DNA of 64,000 nt from Mesonia phycicola (GTDB lineage: Bacteria > Bacteroidota > Bacteroidia > Flavobacteriales > Flavobacteriaceae), in assembly GCF_900141885.1 (NCBI RefSeq), contig NZ_FQYY01000003.1, positions 62,001 to 126,000 of the forward strand, written 5' to 3'. A program made the translations under genes and the position numbers. The notes under the pieces were generated by a model. The model searched no databases and had not been told where the DNA came from. It was given only the letters and a program-made list of their open reading frames with translations. Positions 1 to 3,686 of this stretch are shown in pieces (the first letter of the stretch is position 1; each line of letters starts with the position of its first letter).

Positions 1-2
1 AT

Positions 3-755
3 ACTTTAGATTTAACTGGTGGCGCACCAGAGATGAACCCCAACTTTAGGTGGTTTGTAGAAGAAGCTTCTAAAGCTGGAATCAAAGATTTTATTGTACG
101 CTCTAACCTTACCATTATTGTGGCCAATAAAAAATACTACGATTTACCAGAGTTTTTTAAAAAACATAATGTGCACGTAGTTTCATCTCTACCATTTTAT
201 AAAAGAGAAAAAACCGACAAGCAGCGTGGCAAAGGCGTTTTTGACAAATCTATACAAGCCTTACAAATGTTAAATGCTGTAGGTTATGGTAAAGAAGGTA
301 GCGGTTTAAAATTAGACTTAGTTTATAACCCTTCTGGAGCTTTTTTACCTAAAGACCAAACTGCGATGGAAAGTGATTTTAAAACTGCTTTAAAAGAAGA
401 TTTCGATATCGAATTTAATAGTCTTTTTGCAATCACTAATTTGCCTATTAGTCGATTTTTAGAGTATTTAATAGCTTCTGATAATTATGAAGATTATATG
501 TATGAGCTGGTAAATGCCTACAACCCTACTGCGGTACAAAATGTAATGTGCAGAAACACCCTTTCTGTTAGTTGGGACGGTTGGCTGTACGATTGTGATT
601 TTAACCAAATGCTAGAGCTAAAAGTAAACAGCAAGGTAAAACATATTAGTAATTATAATGAAGAAGCTGTACAAAACAGAAATATAATTGTTTCTCAACA
701 TTGTTACGGTTGCACTGCTGGTGCAGGAAGTAGTTGTCAAGGTACTGTAGCATAA
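3..755 (+). CDS. arsS: Arsenosugar biosynthesis radical SAM protein ArsS (C-terminal part)
   Basis: The gene is cut by the left window edge; the reading frame is open from the first bases, giving TLDLTGGAPEMNPNF before the first internal Met, so the CxxxCxxC radical SAM cluster lies outside the window. The visible part has the TGGAPE strand typical of radical SAM barrels and a Cys-rich C-terminus (MCRNTLSVSWDGWLYDCDFN, then HCYGCTAGAGSSCQ), the hallmark of the ArsS/DUF3641 family. Family knowledge: ArsS transfers the 5'-deoxyadenosyl group of SAM to a dimethylated arsenical on the way to arsenosugars. It is followed 1 bp later by a rhodanese gene and ends an operon with arsM, which supports the call strongly. 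Confidence 0.9.
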   Translation, partial: TLDLTGGAPEMNPNFRWFVEEASKAGIKDFIVRSNLTIIVANKKYYDLPEFFKKHNVHVVSSLPFYKREKTDKQRGKGVFDKSIQALQMLNAVGYGKEGSGLKLDLVYNPSGAFLPKDQTAMESDFKTALKEDFDIEFNSLFAITNLPISRFLEYLIASDNYEDYMYELVNAYNPTAVQNVMCRNTLSVSWDGWLYDCDFNQMLELKVNSKVKHISNYNEEAVQNRNIIVSQHCYGCTAGAGSSCQGTVA

Positions 756-756
756 T

Positions 757-1251
757 ATGAAACTCTTTAAAATTTTAATTCTCTTTATAAGTATTACTAG
801 TACCGCACAAAAATCTGTGCAAGATGTGCTAGAAAAATACAATTCTCATTCTATACCTTATATTTCTGTAGAGCAACTAAAAGCTATTCAGCAAAAAGAC
901 AGCGTAATTTTATTAGATGCTCGCGAACCCGAAGAATTTCAGGTAAGTCATTTAAAAAATGCCAAATACGTTGGATTTAAAAATTTTTCTTCAGAAGAAA
1001 TTCAGCAACAATTTCCAGATAAAAATCAACCTATTGTAGTGTATTGCTCTTTAGGCGTTCGATCAGAAAAAATTGGAGAAAAGCTTCAAAAGTTAGGTTA
1101 TAAAAATATTCAGAATTTATACGGCGGAATTTTTGAATGGACCAACAATTATTACCCTGTATACAACTCTACCAATAAAGAAACCGACACCGTACACGCA
1201 TTTAACAAAAAATGGTCTAAATGGCTTAAAAACGCTGAAAAAGTTTACTAA
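757..1251 (+). CDS. Secreted rhodanese-like sulfurtransferase
   Basis: This 164-residue protein has a single rhodanese domain. The N-terminus (MKLFKILILFISITSTAQ) looks like an export signal, so the domain probably acts in the periplasm. The substrate-binding DARE motif is at about residue 54 and the active-site loop CSLGVRS starts at Cys97, so the catalytic Cys is present. The gene begins 1 bp after arsS and ends directly against the glycosyltransferase start, so it is an integral member of the arsenic operon. Family knowledge gives sulfane-sulfur transfer; a role in thio-arsenical chemistry or redox protection is my inference. It could also simply be a passenger. Confidence 0.85.
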   Translation: MKLFKILILFISITSTAQKSVQDVLEKYNSHSIPYISVEQLKAIQQKDSVILLDAREPEEFQVSHLKNAKYVGFKNFSSEEIQQQFPDKNQPIVVYCSLGVRSEKIGEKLQKLGYKNIQNLYGGIFEWTNNYYPVYNSTNKETDTVHAFNKKWSKWLKNAEKVY

Positions 1252-1860
1252 ATGAAATCGAAAAACCTGTTAATTATATTTACTAAAAACCCAGAATTGG
1301 GTAAATGTAAAACCAGATTAGCTAAAAGTATAGGAGATATTTCTGCCTTAGAAATATATAAATATTTATTACAGCATACCGCAACAGTAACTAAAAAAAT
1401 AGAAGCTGAAAAAGAAGTTTTTTATAGCCAAGCACCTATAGAAAATGACAATTTCTCTTCTACTTATTTTTTAAAGAAAACCCAAACAGGTGCAGATTTA
1501 GGCGAAAAGATGAGTAACGCCTTTCTACAAGGTTTCTCAAACAAATATGAGAAAGTAGTGATTATAGGTAGTGATTTATATGATCTTGAAACTGCAGATA
1601 TACAAGAGGCTTTTCTTCAATTAGAAAAATTAGACTACGTAATAGGACCAGCAAAAGATGGCGGCTATTATTTATTAGGAATGAATAAATTTACGCCTGA
1701 AATTTTTCAGCAAATCAACTGGAGTACTTCTACAGTTTTAGAAGAAACCCTTCAATTATTAAAAAATAAAAAAGTAGTTTTATTACAAGAAAAAAACGAT
1801 ATAGATACCATAGAAGATATTAAACATATTAATGTCTTTCAACAATACATAAACAAATGA
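1252..1860 (+). CDS. TIGR04282-type arsenosugar-cluster glycosyltransferase (DUF2064)
   Basis: The 202-residue protein has the GT-A-like nucleotide-binding start LLIIFTKNPELGKCKTRLA (residues 5-23), the conserved DLGEKMSNAF region, a central GSDLYDL acidic motif and DGGYYLLGM near residue 140, all typical of the DUF2064/TIGR04282 family that is repeatedly found beside arsS. It is predicted to act on a nucleotide sugar or related substrate in the cytoplasm. It directly abuts the rhodanese gene and overlaps the next gene by 4 bp (ATGA), consistent with translational coupling. The exact donor and acceptor have not been read from sequence; a sugar-forming or sugar-modifying step in arsenosugar synthesis is the best inference. 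Confidence 0.85.
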   Translation: MKSKNLLIIFTKNPELGKCKTRLAKSIGDISALEIYKYLLQHTATVTKKIEAEKEVFYSQAPIENDNFSSTYFLKKTQTGADLGEKMSNAFLQGFSNKYEKVVIIGSDLYDLETADIQEAFLQLEKLDYVIGPAKDGGYYLLGMNKFTPEIFQQINWSTSTVLEETLQLLKNKKVVLLQEKNDIDTIEDIKHINVFQQYINK

Positions 1861-2672
1861 GATATATAGAACAAACTGTAAAATACCTTAAAAATAAAGG
1901 TTTTGAAAACCCAGAAGTGGGTATAATTTTGGGTACTGGATTAGGTAAATTACTAAATGAAGTAAATATTATTGCTGAAGTAAGCTACAACCACATTCCT
2001 AACTTTCCTACGGCAACGGTAGAGTTTCATAAAGGCCATTTAATTTTTGGTGAGCTTGCAGATAAAAAAGTAGTAATTATGCAAGGGCGCTTTCATTTAT
2101 ACGAAGGTTACACCTTGCAAGATGTCACCTTTCCCGTAAGAATTATGCATCGTCTTGGTATTAAAAAACTCTTAGTTTCTAACGCATCTGGCGCTATAAA
2201 TCCAAACTTTAAAAAGGGTGAGTTAATGATGATTGACGACCATATTAACCTACAAGGCGGCTCTCCACTTGCTTTTAAAGGGGTGTCTCAATATGGCGAA
2301 CGTTTTGTAGATATGAGTGAACCATACAACAAACAGATTTGTGATAAAATTGAAAAAATTGCAGAAGAAAAAAACATTAAACTTCACAAAGGGGTTTACG
2401 CTTCTGTAGTGGGACCTCAACTAGAAACTAGAGCAGAGTATAGAATGCTTAAAATTATTGGTGCAGATGCTGTAGGTATGAGTACCGTGCCAGAGGTTAT
2501 TGTTGCCAACCATTTAAATTTACCCGTAGCGGCCGTTTCTGTATTAACCGATGAGTGCAACCCAGATCATTTAAAACCGGTAGACATTAAAGAAATTATA
2601 GCTATGGCAGAGAAAGCTGAGCCTGATATGATTGTTCTATTTAAAGAACTTATAAAAGCAGTAGAGGTATGA
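1857..2672 (+). CDS. Trimeric-type purine nucleoside phosphorylase
   Basis: At 271 residues this fits the PNP/MTAP family: phosphate loop GTGLGK (26-31), RFHLYEGY (78-85), the SNASGAINP strand (108-116), and GPQLETRAEY with VGMSTVPE. Aligning by these motifs to human PNP (constant offset of 11) places Glu190 at Glu201, Met208 at Met219 and Asp232 at Asn243. An Asp at that last position is seen in adenine-specific methylthioadenosine phosphorylases, so this enzyme may cleave adenine nucleosides. In this operon it could phosphorolyse the deoxyadenosyl-arsenical made by ArsS and release adenine. It overlaps both neighbours by 4 bp. A general purine salvage role is the alternative. Confidence 0.88.
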   Translation: MRYIEQTVKYLKNKGFENPEVGIILGTGLGKLLNEVNIIAEVSYNHIPNFPTATVEFHKGHLIFGELADKKVVIMQGRFHLYEGYTLQDVTFPVRIMHRLGIKKLLVSNASGAINPNFKKGELMMIDDHINLQGGSPLAFKGVSQYGERFVDMSEPYNKQICDKIEKIAEEKNIKLHKGVYASVVGPQLETRAEYRMLKIIGADAVGMSTVPEVIVANHLNLPVAAVSVLTDECNPDHLKPVDIKEIIAMAEKAEPDMIVLFKELIKAVEV

Positions 2673-3637
2673 GCTATTTAGAAACTACTAAAGATGTGTA
2701 TAAGCAAGCTGCTTTAACACCAGATGTTGGTCTTTGCTGTACAACCAATCCTATTTGGGAATTGCCTGGATTAAAAATCCCAAAAATAATGCAGGAGATG
2801 AATTATGGCTGCGGAAGCACCGTACATGCAAGAGACTTAGTAAACAACCCAAAAACACTTTATGTAGGAGTTGGCGGCGGAATGGAGCTTTTGCAATTTG
2901 CCTATTTTTCTAGACAAAAAAACGCCGTAGTTGGGATAGATGTGGTAGATGAAATGCTAGAAGCTTCTCGTAAAAACTTTCAAGAAGCAGAAGAGATGAA
3001 TTCTTGGTTTAAATCAGAATTTGTAGATCTAAAAAAAGGAGATGCATTAAACCTTCCTGTAGAAGACAACTCTATCGATGTGGCTGCCCAAAACTGTCTC
3101 TTCAATATTTTTAAAACTGAAGAATTAAAAAAAGCTATTGCAGAAATGTACCGCGTCTTAAAACCTCATGGTAGATTAGTAATGAGTGATCCTATTTGTG
3201 AGCAGAAGATGAACGATACCCTGCGTAATGATGAGCGTTTACGTGCTCTTTGCTTAAGCGGAAGTTTACCTCTAAATGAATATGTAAAAATGCTAACCGA
3301 TGCTGGATTTGGTACTATAGAAATTAGAGCTAAAAAACCTTACCGAATTCTAGACCCTAAAAACTATCCTACAGAAGAGTTAATTTATATTGAAAGTATA
3401 GAAGTAGCTGCTATTAAAGACCCTATGCCAGAAGATGGACCTTGTATTTTTACAGGAAAAGCAGCTATTTATTATGGTGCAGAAGATTTTTTTGATGATA
3501 AAAAAGGACATATTCTTTTAAAAAATCAACCCTTAGCCGTTTGTGATAAAACTGCTGCTGCATTAGCTAGTTTAAACCGAGAAGATATTTTTATTAGTGA
3601 ATCTACTTACCACTATGATGGTGGCGGTTGTTGCTAA
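2669..3637 (+). CDS. arsM: Arsenosugar-cluster arsenite methyltransferase ArsM
   Basis: The 322-residue protein is a class I SAM-dependent methyltransferase: SAM-binding glycine loop VGVGGGMELLQF, acidic GIDVVDEM after strand 2, and the post-motif region PVEDNSIDVAAQNCLFNIF. Several Cys residues are placed as expected for As(III) binding (Cys23-Cys24, Cys48, and the DPICE and LCLSG cysteines), and the protein ends in a GGGCC tail. ArsM converts arsenite to mono- and dimethylated arsenicals using SAM and thiols. It is the last gene of the operon and is followed by a strong terminator at 3651-3686. The combination with arsS makes the family call firm. Confidence 0.93.
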   Translation: MSYLETTKDVYKQAALTPDVGLCCTTNPIWELPGLKIPKIMQEMNYGCGSTVHARDLVNNPKTLYVGVGGGMELLQFAYFSRQKNAVVGIDVVDEMLEASRKNFQEAEEMNSWFKSEFVDLKKGDALNLPVEDNSIDVAAQNCLFNIFKTEELKKAIAEMYRVLKPHGRLVMSDPICEQKMNDTLRNDERLRALCLSGSLPLNEYVKMLTDAGFGTIEIRAKKPYRILDPKNYPTEELIYIESIEVAAIKDPMPEDGPCIFTGKAAIYYGAEDFFDDKKGHILLKNQPLAVCDKTAAALASLNREDIFISESTYHYDGGGCC

Positions 3638-3650
3638 AATATAATATCAA

Positions 3651-3686
3651 AAAAAAAAGCCTCTTTCCAAGAAAGAGGCTTTTTTA
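3651..3686. terminator. Bidirectional intrinsic terminator between arsM and greA
   Basis: A 9-bp perfect stem (gcctctttc at 3659-3667, gaaagaggc at 3671-3679) is flanked by an A-run on the left and a T-run on the right, so it can terminate both the arsenic operon and the convergent greA transcript. Confidence 0.9.

Follow-up and report, generated by a model that had tools for sequence, protein, structure and literature searches.

A conserved phosphorylase and TIGR04282 pair in an arsenosugar-type operon of Mesonia phycicola: candidates for the steps that follow ArsS

Arsenosugars are among the main forms of arsenic in marine algae and in food, and one described bacterial route towards them is the ArsM-ArsS pathway of cyanobacteria, reportedly worked out by Xue in 2019 and Cheng in 2021. 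The product of ArsS is 5'-deoxy-5'-dimethylarsinoyl-adenosine and, to our knowledge, no enzymes have been assigned to the steps that follow it; a search of the open-access literature returned no title on these steps in bacteria. The present analysis concerns an operon of Mesonia phycicola (Flavobacteriaceae) which, like the cyanobacterial pathway, contains relatives of ArsM and ArsS, both above curated cut-offs, but which adds a purine nucleoside phosphorylase (PNP), a TIGR04282 protein, a rhodanese-domain protein and a TIGR04169 protein. The window, which here means the whole stretch of 64,000 nucleotides that was analysed, corresponds to bases 62001-126000 of contig C22 in a draft genome of 3.28 Mb; it starts inside arsS, and a further 10 kb to the left was also read.

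The arsenosugar families themselves are already named in NCBIfam, as TIGR04167, TIGR04169, TIGR04282, TIGR04283 and NF038099, and the genome has a match above cut-off to each of these and to NF045521. What differs here is the PNP, which lies in the operon and drew no arsenosugar-named model, and the role given to TIGR04282, which is named a glycosyltransferase in NCBIfam but is proposed here to be a nucleotidyltransferase. By analogy, the closest working parallel is the biosynthesis of the fluorometabolites and salinosporamide, where the PNP-type phosphorylases are FlB and SalT. In those pathways too a 5'-substituted adenosine derived from S-adenosylmethionine (SAM) is passed to a phosphorylase, and the 5'-halo-adenosine goes through 5-halo-ribose-1-phosphate (work cited in PMC7408626). 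The difference is that the substituent there is a halogen, whereas here it would be arsenic, and that the phosphorylase is joined here by nucleotidyltransferase-like and glycosyltransferase proteins. A review of microalgal metabolites also sets out a proposed route to an algal arsenolipid with an adenosyl nucleosidase (PMC10456119), which likewise removes adenine from an arseno-nucleoside; unlike that enzyme, phosphorolysis as proposed here would keep the sugar activated.

The operon may make an arsenosugar by such a phosphorolytic route, a reading to which we give a little less than an even chance. The ArsM and ArsS steps are known from other organisms and follow published work cited in PMC12159101: ArsM would methylate arsenite to dimethylarsenite and ArsS would join the arsenic to the adenosine of SAM. 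The steps of PNP, TIGR04282 and TIGR04283 are inferred. In the third step PNP would use phosphate to release adenine and form 5-deoxy-5-dimethylarsino-alpha-ribose 1-phosphate, in the fourth the TIGR04282 protein, as a CofC-like nucleotidyltransferase, would convert this into a nucleoside-diphosphate (NDP)-arseno-ribose, and in the fifth the family-2 glycosyltransferase TIGR04283 would transfer the arseno-ribose to a glycerol-type or lipid acceptor as a beta-riboside. Glycosyltransferases of family 2 invert, and inversion at the third step, retention of the alpha configuration at the fourth and inversion at the fifth would lead to the beta anomer. Phosphorolysis yields alpha-ribose-1-phosphate (PMC7226091) and natural arsenosugars have the beta configuration (PMC6656958). 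The TIGR04169 and rhodanese proteins would be accessory, contributing redox or sulfur chemistry, and the same PNP would probably also salvage adenosine, methylthioadenosine (MTA) and 5'-deoxyadenosine. That the three proteins carry out phosphorolysis, nucleotidyl activation and glycosyl transfer by way of a nucleotide-activated arsenic sugar is a more tentative proposal, and we know of no report of such a sugar. A conserved pair able to make and activate arseno-ribose-1-phosphate would supply concrete candidates for the steps after ArsS, so that the pathway question becomes tractable with a few purified enzymes and, if the proposal is true, the annotated name of the TIGR04282 family would need correction.

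The operon consists of six genes in the same direction, in the order TIGR04169, arsS, rhodanese, TIGR04282, PNP and arsM, each above its NCBIfam curated cut-off, which supports the description of an arsenosugar-type cluster given in a first-pass annotation of the window. That annotation had counted five genes, all of which are real; the sixth lies outside the window, 60 bp before arsS, and encodes an arsenosugar-associated peroxidase-like TIGR04169 protein of 111 amino acids with a CPYC motif (199 bits, cut-off 120). The arsS gene (L001:9700-10755) encodes a radical SAM enzyme of 351 amino acids and begins 300 bases to the left of the window, of which its 3' part occupies positions 1..755 (open reading frame 3-755) on the + strand; the whole gene scores 448 bits against TIGR04167 (cut-off 300). 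It is followed on the + strand by the rhodanese-domain gene at 757..1251 (NF045521, 210.5 bits, cut-off 145), the TIGR04282 gene, annotated as a glycosyltransferase, at 1252..1860 (213.7 bits, cut-off 134), the PNP gene at 1857..2672 (NF006054, 346 bits, cut-off 218) and arsM, for an arsenosugar-type arsenite methyltransferase, at 2669..3637 (NF038099, 579 bits, cut-off 400). Between arsS and arsM there is a gap of 1 bp, a gap of 0 bp and two 4-bp overlaps, which confirms the tight packing noted before, and, judged by this spacing, the six genes are probably co-transcribed. The CxxxCxxC motif and C-terminal cysteines of ArsS are invariant in 12 aligned sequences, that of M. phycicola among them, and the genome holds a TIGR04167 ArsS with its radical SAM cysteines, an NF038099 ArsM and a TIGR04283 protein. 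The TIGR04283 glycosyltransferase gene had been expected directly to the left of the window, a position that is rejected by its absence among the open reading frames scanned in the leftward 10 kb; it lies instead at 334335-334976 of the same contig, about 270 kb from the operon (201-202 bits, cut-off 182), where it adjoins a DUF547 gene. The TIGR04283/DUF547 pair sits inside the cluster in many relatives, and a sequence search with the DUF547 protein found no solved structural relative.

The clustering of the operon is far beyond chance. It was followed in a family sample of 100 Flavobacteriaceae genomes from 99 genera, the family being inferred from the titles of the 80 best-matching arsS loci, in which arsS is present in 73, TIGR04282 in 78, PNP in 88, the arsenosugar ArsM in 55 and TIGR04283 in 64. 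All 73 genomes with arsS contain both TIGR04282 and PNP, with ArsM in 55 and TIGR04283 in 61 of them, whereas the 27 genomes lacking arsS contain TIGR04282 in 5, PNP in 15, ArsM in 0 and TIGR04283 in 3; for arsS with TIGR04282 this gives a Fisher p of 1e-17 when shared descent is ignored. In 52 of the 73 no more than 4 kb separates PNP from arsS (on the same strand in 50), against about 0.17 expected by random placement, and in 63 no more than 10.5 kb. PNP is found 8.7-9.9 kb downstream of arsS in 11 genomes and far from arsS or on another contig in 10, although in several draft genomes with the two genes on different contigs the true distance is not fixed. The TIGR04282 and PNP genes are same-strand neighbours (<1.5 kb) in all 76 genomes that have both, with fewer than 300 bp between the matched parts in 69, and the adjacency is kept in all 10 genomes where arsS is distant or on another contig. 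PNP and ArsM lie within 300 bp of each other in 52 of the 55 genomes holding both, and two genomes (G169 and G198) contain TIGR04282 while lacking both PNP and arsS.

A similar picture comes from the best 80 of 593 confirmed arsS places, which by their titles are nearly all from Flavobacteriaceae and of which the closest belong to Christiangramia, Zunongwangia and Salegentibacter. Homologues were counted in these loci by phmmer with self-set bit thresholds, giving TIGR04169 in 80, TIGR04282 in 60, PNP in 59, rhodanese in 47, ArsM in 47, DUF547 in 36 and TIGR04283 in 26. Fifty-seven of the loci contain PNP together with TIGR04282, in each case no more than 1.5 kb apart. As a control, the eight genes flanking the operon in M. 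phycicola were recounted down to 40 bits: six are found in none of the 80 loci and a TonB receptor and a histidine kinase in one each, while at 150 bits the TonB receptor alone is found. It is therefore the cluster that has been kept and not the region.

The binding pocket of the operon PNP includes E190, D232 and I244. The protein passes NF006054 by 128 bits and falls below the cut-off of the MTA phosphorylase model TIGR01694 (96.9 bits against 274.85). It has neither of the residues typical of the inosine/guanosine enzymes, the Asn of the 6-oxo position and the His of the 5'-OH position, as alignment with solved PNPs places D232 opposite the Asn and I244 opposite the His of the canonical structures 8swu and 3la8; 4lna and 4m1e also carry Asp at the D232 position. 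We take the D232 site to correspond to human Asn243 and the 5'-OH-facing residue to be His257, with Glu201 as the third presumed human number, and MTA phosphorylase has an aliphatic residue at the His257 position. Exchange of the Asn for Asp gave the K. lactis PNP, whose activity on adenosine had been undetectable, a kcat/KM of 2.2e6 for this substrate and raised the adenosine rate of human PNP 5000-fold (PMC5074518), and a human PNP with two changes, E201Q:N243D, cleaves adenosine prodrugs (PMC2799393). An aliphatic residue at the 5'-OH position would, judged from the alignment, suit a 5'-substituted substrate, and the E-D-aliphatic signature agrees with an adenine nucleoside that is modified at its 5' end, which does not prove that the substrate is an arsenical. 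The Asp in the base pocket and the very strong linkage in the family both lend weight to the earlier suggestion that PNP is the likely remover of adenine.

A number of observations, outside the family and within it, weigh against the proposed route. In a phylum sample of 118 genomes ArsS is above cut-off in 41, and the 40 loci besides that of M. phycicola were annotated with the window proteins. PNP is present in none of the 35 arsS loci from other families, the fetched stretch reaching at least 4 kb to each side in 34 of them (at L077 the contig ends right at arsS), so that the step would there need an enzyme acting in trans; a TIGR01697-type PNP is found somewhere in the genome in all 35. 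The same 35 loci contain TIGR04282 in 24, TIGR04283 in 22, TIGR04169 in 20, DUF547 in 4 and arsM in 1, with neither TIGR04282 nor TIGR04283 in 8, and the five further phylum loci that bear PNP (in one case only partly inside the stretch) are all of M. phycicola's own family. Since a PNP no more than 4 kb from arsS is seen in 52 of 73 genomes of the family and in 0 of 35 loci outside it, its inclusion in the arsS cluster is chiefly a trait of this lineage, and the comparison of arsS neighbourhoods that had been called for thus bears out the phosphorylase for the family and not beyond, where TIGR04282 and TIGR04283 recur. The contents of the arsS cluster vary by host. In four of 52 matching plasmid records that were compared, all four from outside the family, arsS is accompanied by TIGR04283, an epimerase and an SDR protein in Hymenobacter, by ArsM in Pseudanabaena, by an adjoining sterol desaturase, a family-2 glycosyltransferase and TIGR04282 in Thiodictyon, and by DUF547, TIGR04283 and TIGR04282 in Acinetobacter; PNP is annotated in none of these four stretches, for which the gene tables are incomplete.

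Within the family the pairing of TIGR04282 with PNP is not absolute, as neither is found in 18 of the best 80 loci, PNP stands without TIGR04282 in two (L197 and L228) and TIGR04282 without PNP in three (L192, 21 kb, and L187 and L218 on short contigs). Three genomes (G118, G135 and G154) have the pair without arsS and ArsM; therefore it may serve another substrate and, for the same reason, the route may be a general conversion of 5'-modified adenosines to ribosyl donors, with arsenosugars as one case. NCBIfam labels the operon PNP as inosine/guanosine-specific, since it passes TIGR01700 (PNPH) by 2.4 bits (295.7 against a cut-off of 293.35). The pocket signature is also shared more widely. 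Of 70 aligned family PNPs, those read from 50 of the 73 arsS-containing genomes are all E-D-[IV], as are 4/4 family members from the phylum sample, and the 15 from genomes without arsS are E-D-[ILV] in 11 cases and E-D-H in 4; the second PNP of genome G150 makes up the 70. In the phylum, where the 30 best PNP loci each were read from 35 genomes with arsS and 44 without (the latter hand-picked from 77 under the cut-off), the E-D-aliphatic form occurs in 29/30 of the former and 18/30 of the latter. The idea that the signature is special to arsS-linked PNPs is accordingly rejected. The activity of TIGR04282, moreover, is throughout a matter of resemblance, and a PNP from the operon clade is retained in eight family genomes that have neither arsS nor TIGR04282.

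These last genomes, and the spread of the pocket signature through the phylum, speak for the explanation that survives best beside the phosphorolytic route, namely that PNP is an ordinary adenosine, MTA or 5'-deoxyadenosine phosphorylase, which sits in the operon only on account of the SAM that ArsS and ArsM use up and the adenosine-type by-products that result; a different enzyme would then take adenine off the arsenical, if it is removed at all. It is also favoured by the single NF006054 match in 72 of the 73 family genomes with arsS and by the presence of only two PF01048 proteins in the M. phycicola genome, the other of which is most like uridine phosphorylase and lies under every NCBIfam cut-off. 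Yet it leaves the constant TIGR04282 partner (76/76 in the sample) unexplained and, in the single arsS-containing family genome with two PNPs (G150), it is a PNP of the operon type, E-D-I, that lies in the arsS cluster, whereas the E-D-H copy belongs to a different clade and lies elsewhere. We regard this explanation as unlikely, though it has to be taken seriously, and the two functions may overlap, as the operon PNP probably also serves salvage since the genome holds no other PNP of this type and the eight family genomes keep one of the same clade without arsS and TIGR04282.

A quick tree of 130 PNPs, calculated without a mixture model, midpoint rooted and with a long-branch warning, places all 57 TIGR04282-linked family PNPs in one clade of 65 rows (SH-aLRT 100, stem 0.59), in which the eight stand-alone PNPs are nested, while the four E-D-H PNPs and the second G150 copy fall elsewhere. 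The simplest reading would be that this PNP type has long travelled with TIGR04282 and that the rest was lost later on several occasions, although a midpoint root cannot prove direction. The only other genome of the same genus in the family sample, G170, has no arsS, TIGR04282, ArsM or TIGR04283 at the thresholds used and retains an operon-clade PNP with the E-D-I pocket.

The first-pass annotation took the TIGR04282 protein to be a glycosyltransferase, but it looks instead like a nucleotidyltransferase. It gives a weak match to the CofC 2-phospholactate guanylyltransferase model TIGR03552 (35.7 bits, E=6.6e-9, under the 105-bit cut-off), and its AlphaFold2 model, built from an alignment of 30 sequences, has a mean pLDDT of 95.3. 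The top match of the model in the PDB is 3cgx, the uncharacterised structure of its own family, and the next are 3-phosphoglycerate guanylyltransferase, FbiD Rv2983 and the CofC-like MM2497 (TM by query 0.65-0.74), followed mostly by cytidylyl- and sugar-phosphate nucleotidyltransferases. The invariant residues of the family include K20-R22-L23, G106-D108, G132-P133-D136-G137-G138 and N182-D183-D185-D189. Owing to this nucleotidyltransferase-like predicted fold, it is more likely that TIGR04282 activates a sugar than that it transfers one, and a constant pairing with an enzyme that makes ribose-1-phosphates is the pattern that would be expected of a sugar-1-phosphate nucleotidyltransferase. 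A true glycosyltransferase, with arseno-ribose-1-phosphate or the nucleoside itself as donor and no NDP-sugar, would agree with the NCBIfam name, with the Pfam match to DUF2064, which we take to be placed with the GT-A folds, and with the glycosyltransferases that make up 6 of the 50 fold matches listed. The order of the nearest folds after 3cgx argues against it, as does a weak alignment with the CofC-like 2i5e that is not significant (E 0.13) and spans the DID...DL motif, and we hold this alternative to be improbable. That PNP is an arsenate reductase, nucleoside arsenolysis helping thiols to reduce arsenate and so supplying arsenite to ArsM, is reported in vitro for PNP by a source that calls its occurrence in vivo unknown (PMC12608789), leaves both the TIGR04282 pairing and the restriction of ArsM to genomes with arsS (55/73 vs 0/27) unexplained, and may be set aside as highly improbable.

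A second, divergent TIGR04282-like protein (109-111 bits, cut-off 134) is found in three genomes, at G191:C22:904114-904476, G193:C1:699145-699507 and G213:C3:595355-595750, and adjoins arsS in two of them; a similar divergent protein (DUF2064) lies beside arsS at L146:6865-7554. A mere rearrangement was considered as the source of the 8.7-9.9 kb between arsS and PNP in the 11 family-sample genomes. In nine of the best 80 loci (L171, L177, L186, L189, L190, L195, L196, L203 and L209), where arsS and TIGR04282 are 7.5-8.3 kb apart and for which the intervening genes were annotated, the distance is due to a recurring insert. It encodes a SusC-like TonB receptor, SusD, a symporter of the sodium:solute type and a metallophosphoesterase, each identified from one scanned member, and these may together serve an uptake function connected with the pathway. 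Next to the arsS cluster, and in the same orientation, 21 of the best 80 loci have a relative of the fatty-acid hydroxylases and sterol desaturases (for example L205:12760-13647; PF04116 in the single member scanned), which may point to an arsenolipid as end product. A PiT-type phosphate transporter is found near the cluster in 8 of these loci (for example L192:13354-14466; PF01384, one member scanned), perhaps linked to arsenate uptake or to the provision of phosphate for phosphorolysis. The locus L187, titled as a Chlorobiota metagenome-assembled genome, has an ArsS 77% identical to that of M. phycicola and a gene order of Flavobacteriaceae type, which may reflect a binning error or transfer.

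The active-site loop of the rhodanese-domain protein reads CSLGVRS. Its N-terminus resembles, by eye, a signal peptide, and because of this stretch the protein may act in the periplasm, apart from the cytoplasmic enzymes. To the left of the TIGR04169 gene lies a divergent histidine kinase gene. At the other end of the operon, a hairpin with A and T runs on its sides (3653..3685), between arsM and the convergent greA, was given by the scan on the - strand only and is likely to be a shared terminator of these two genes.

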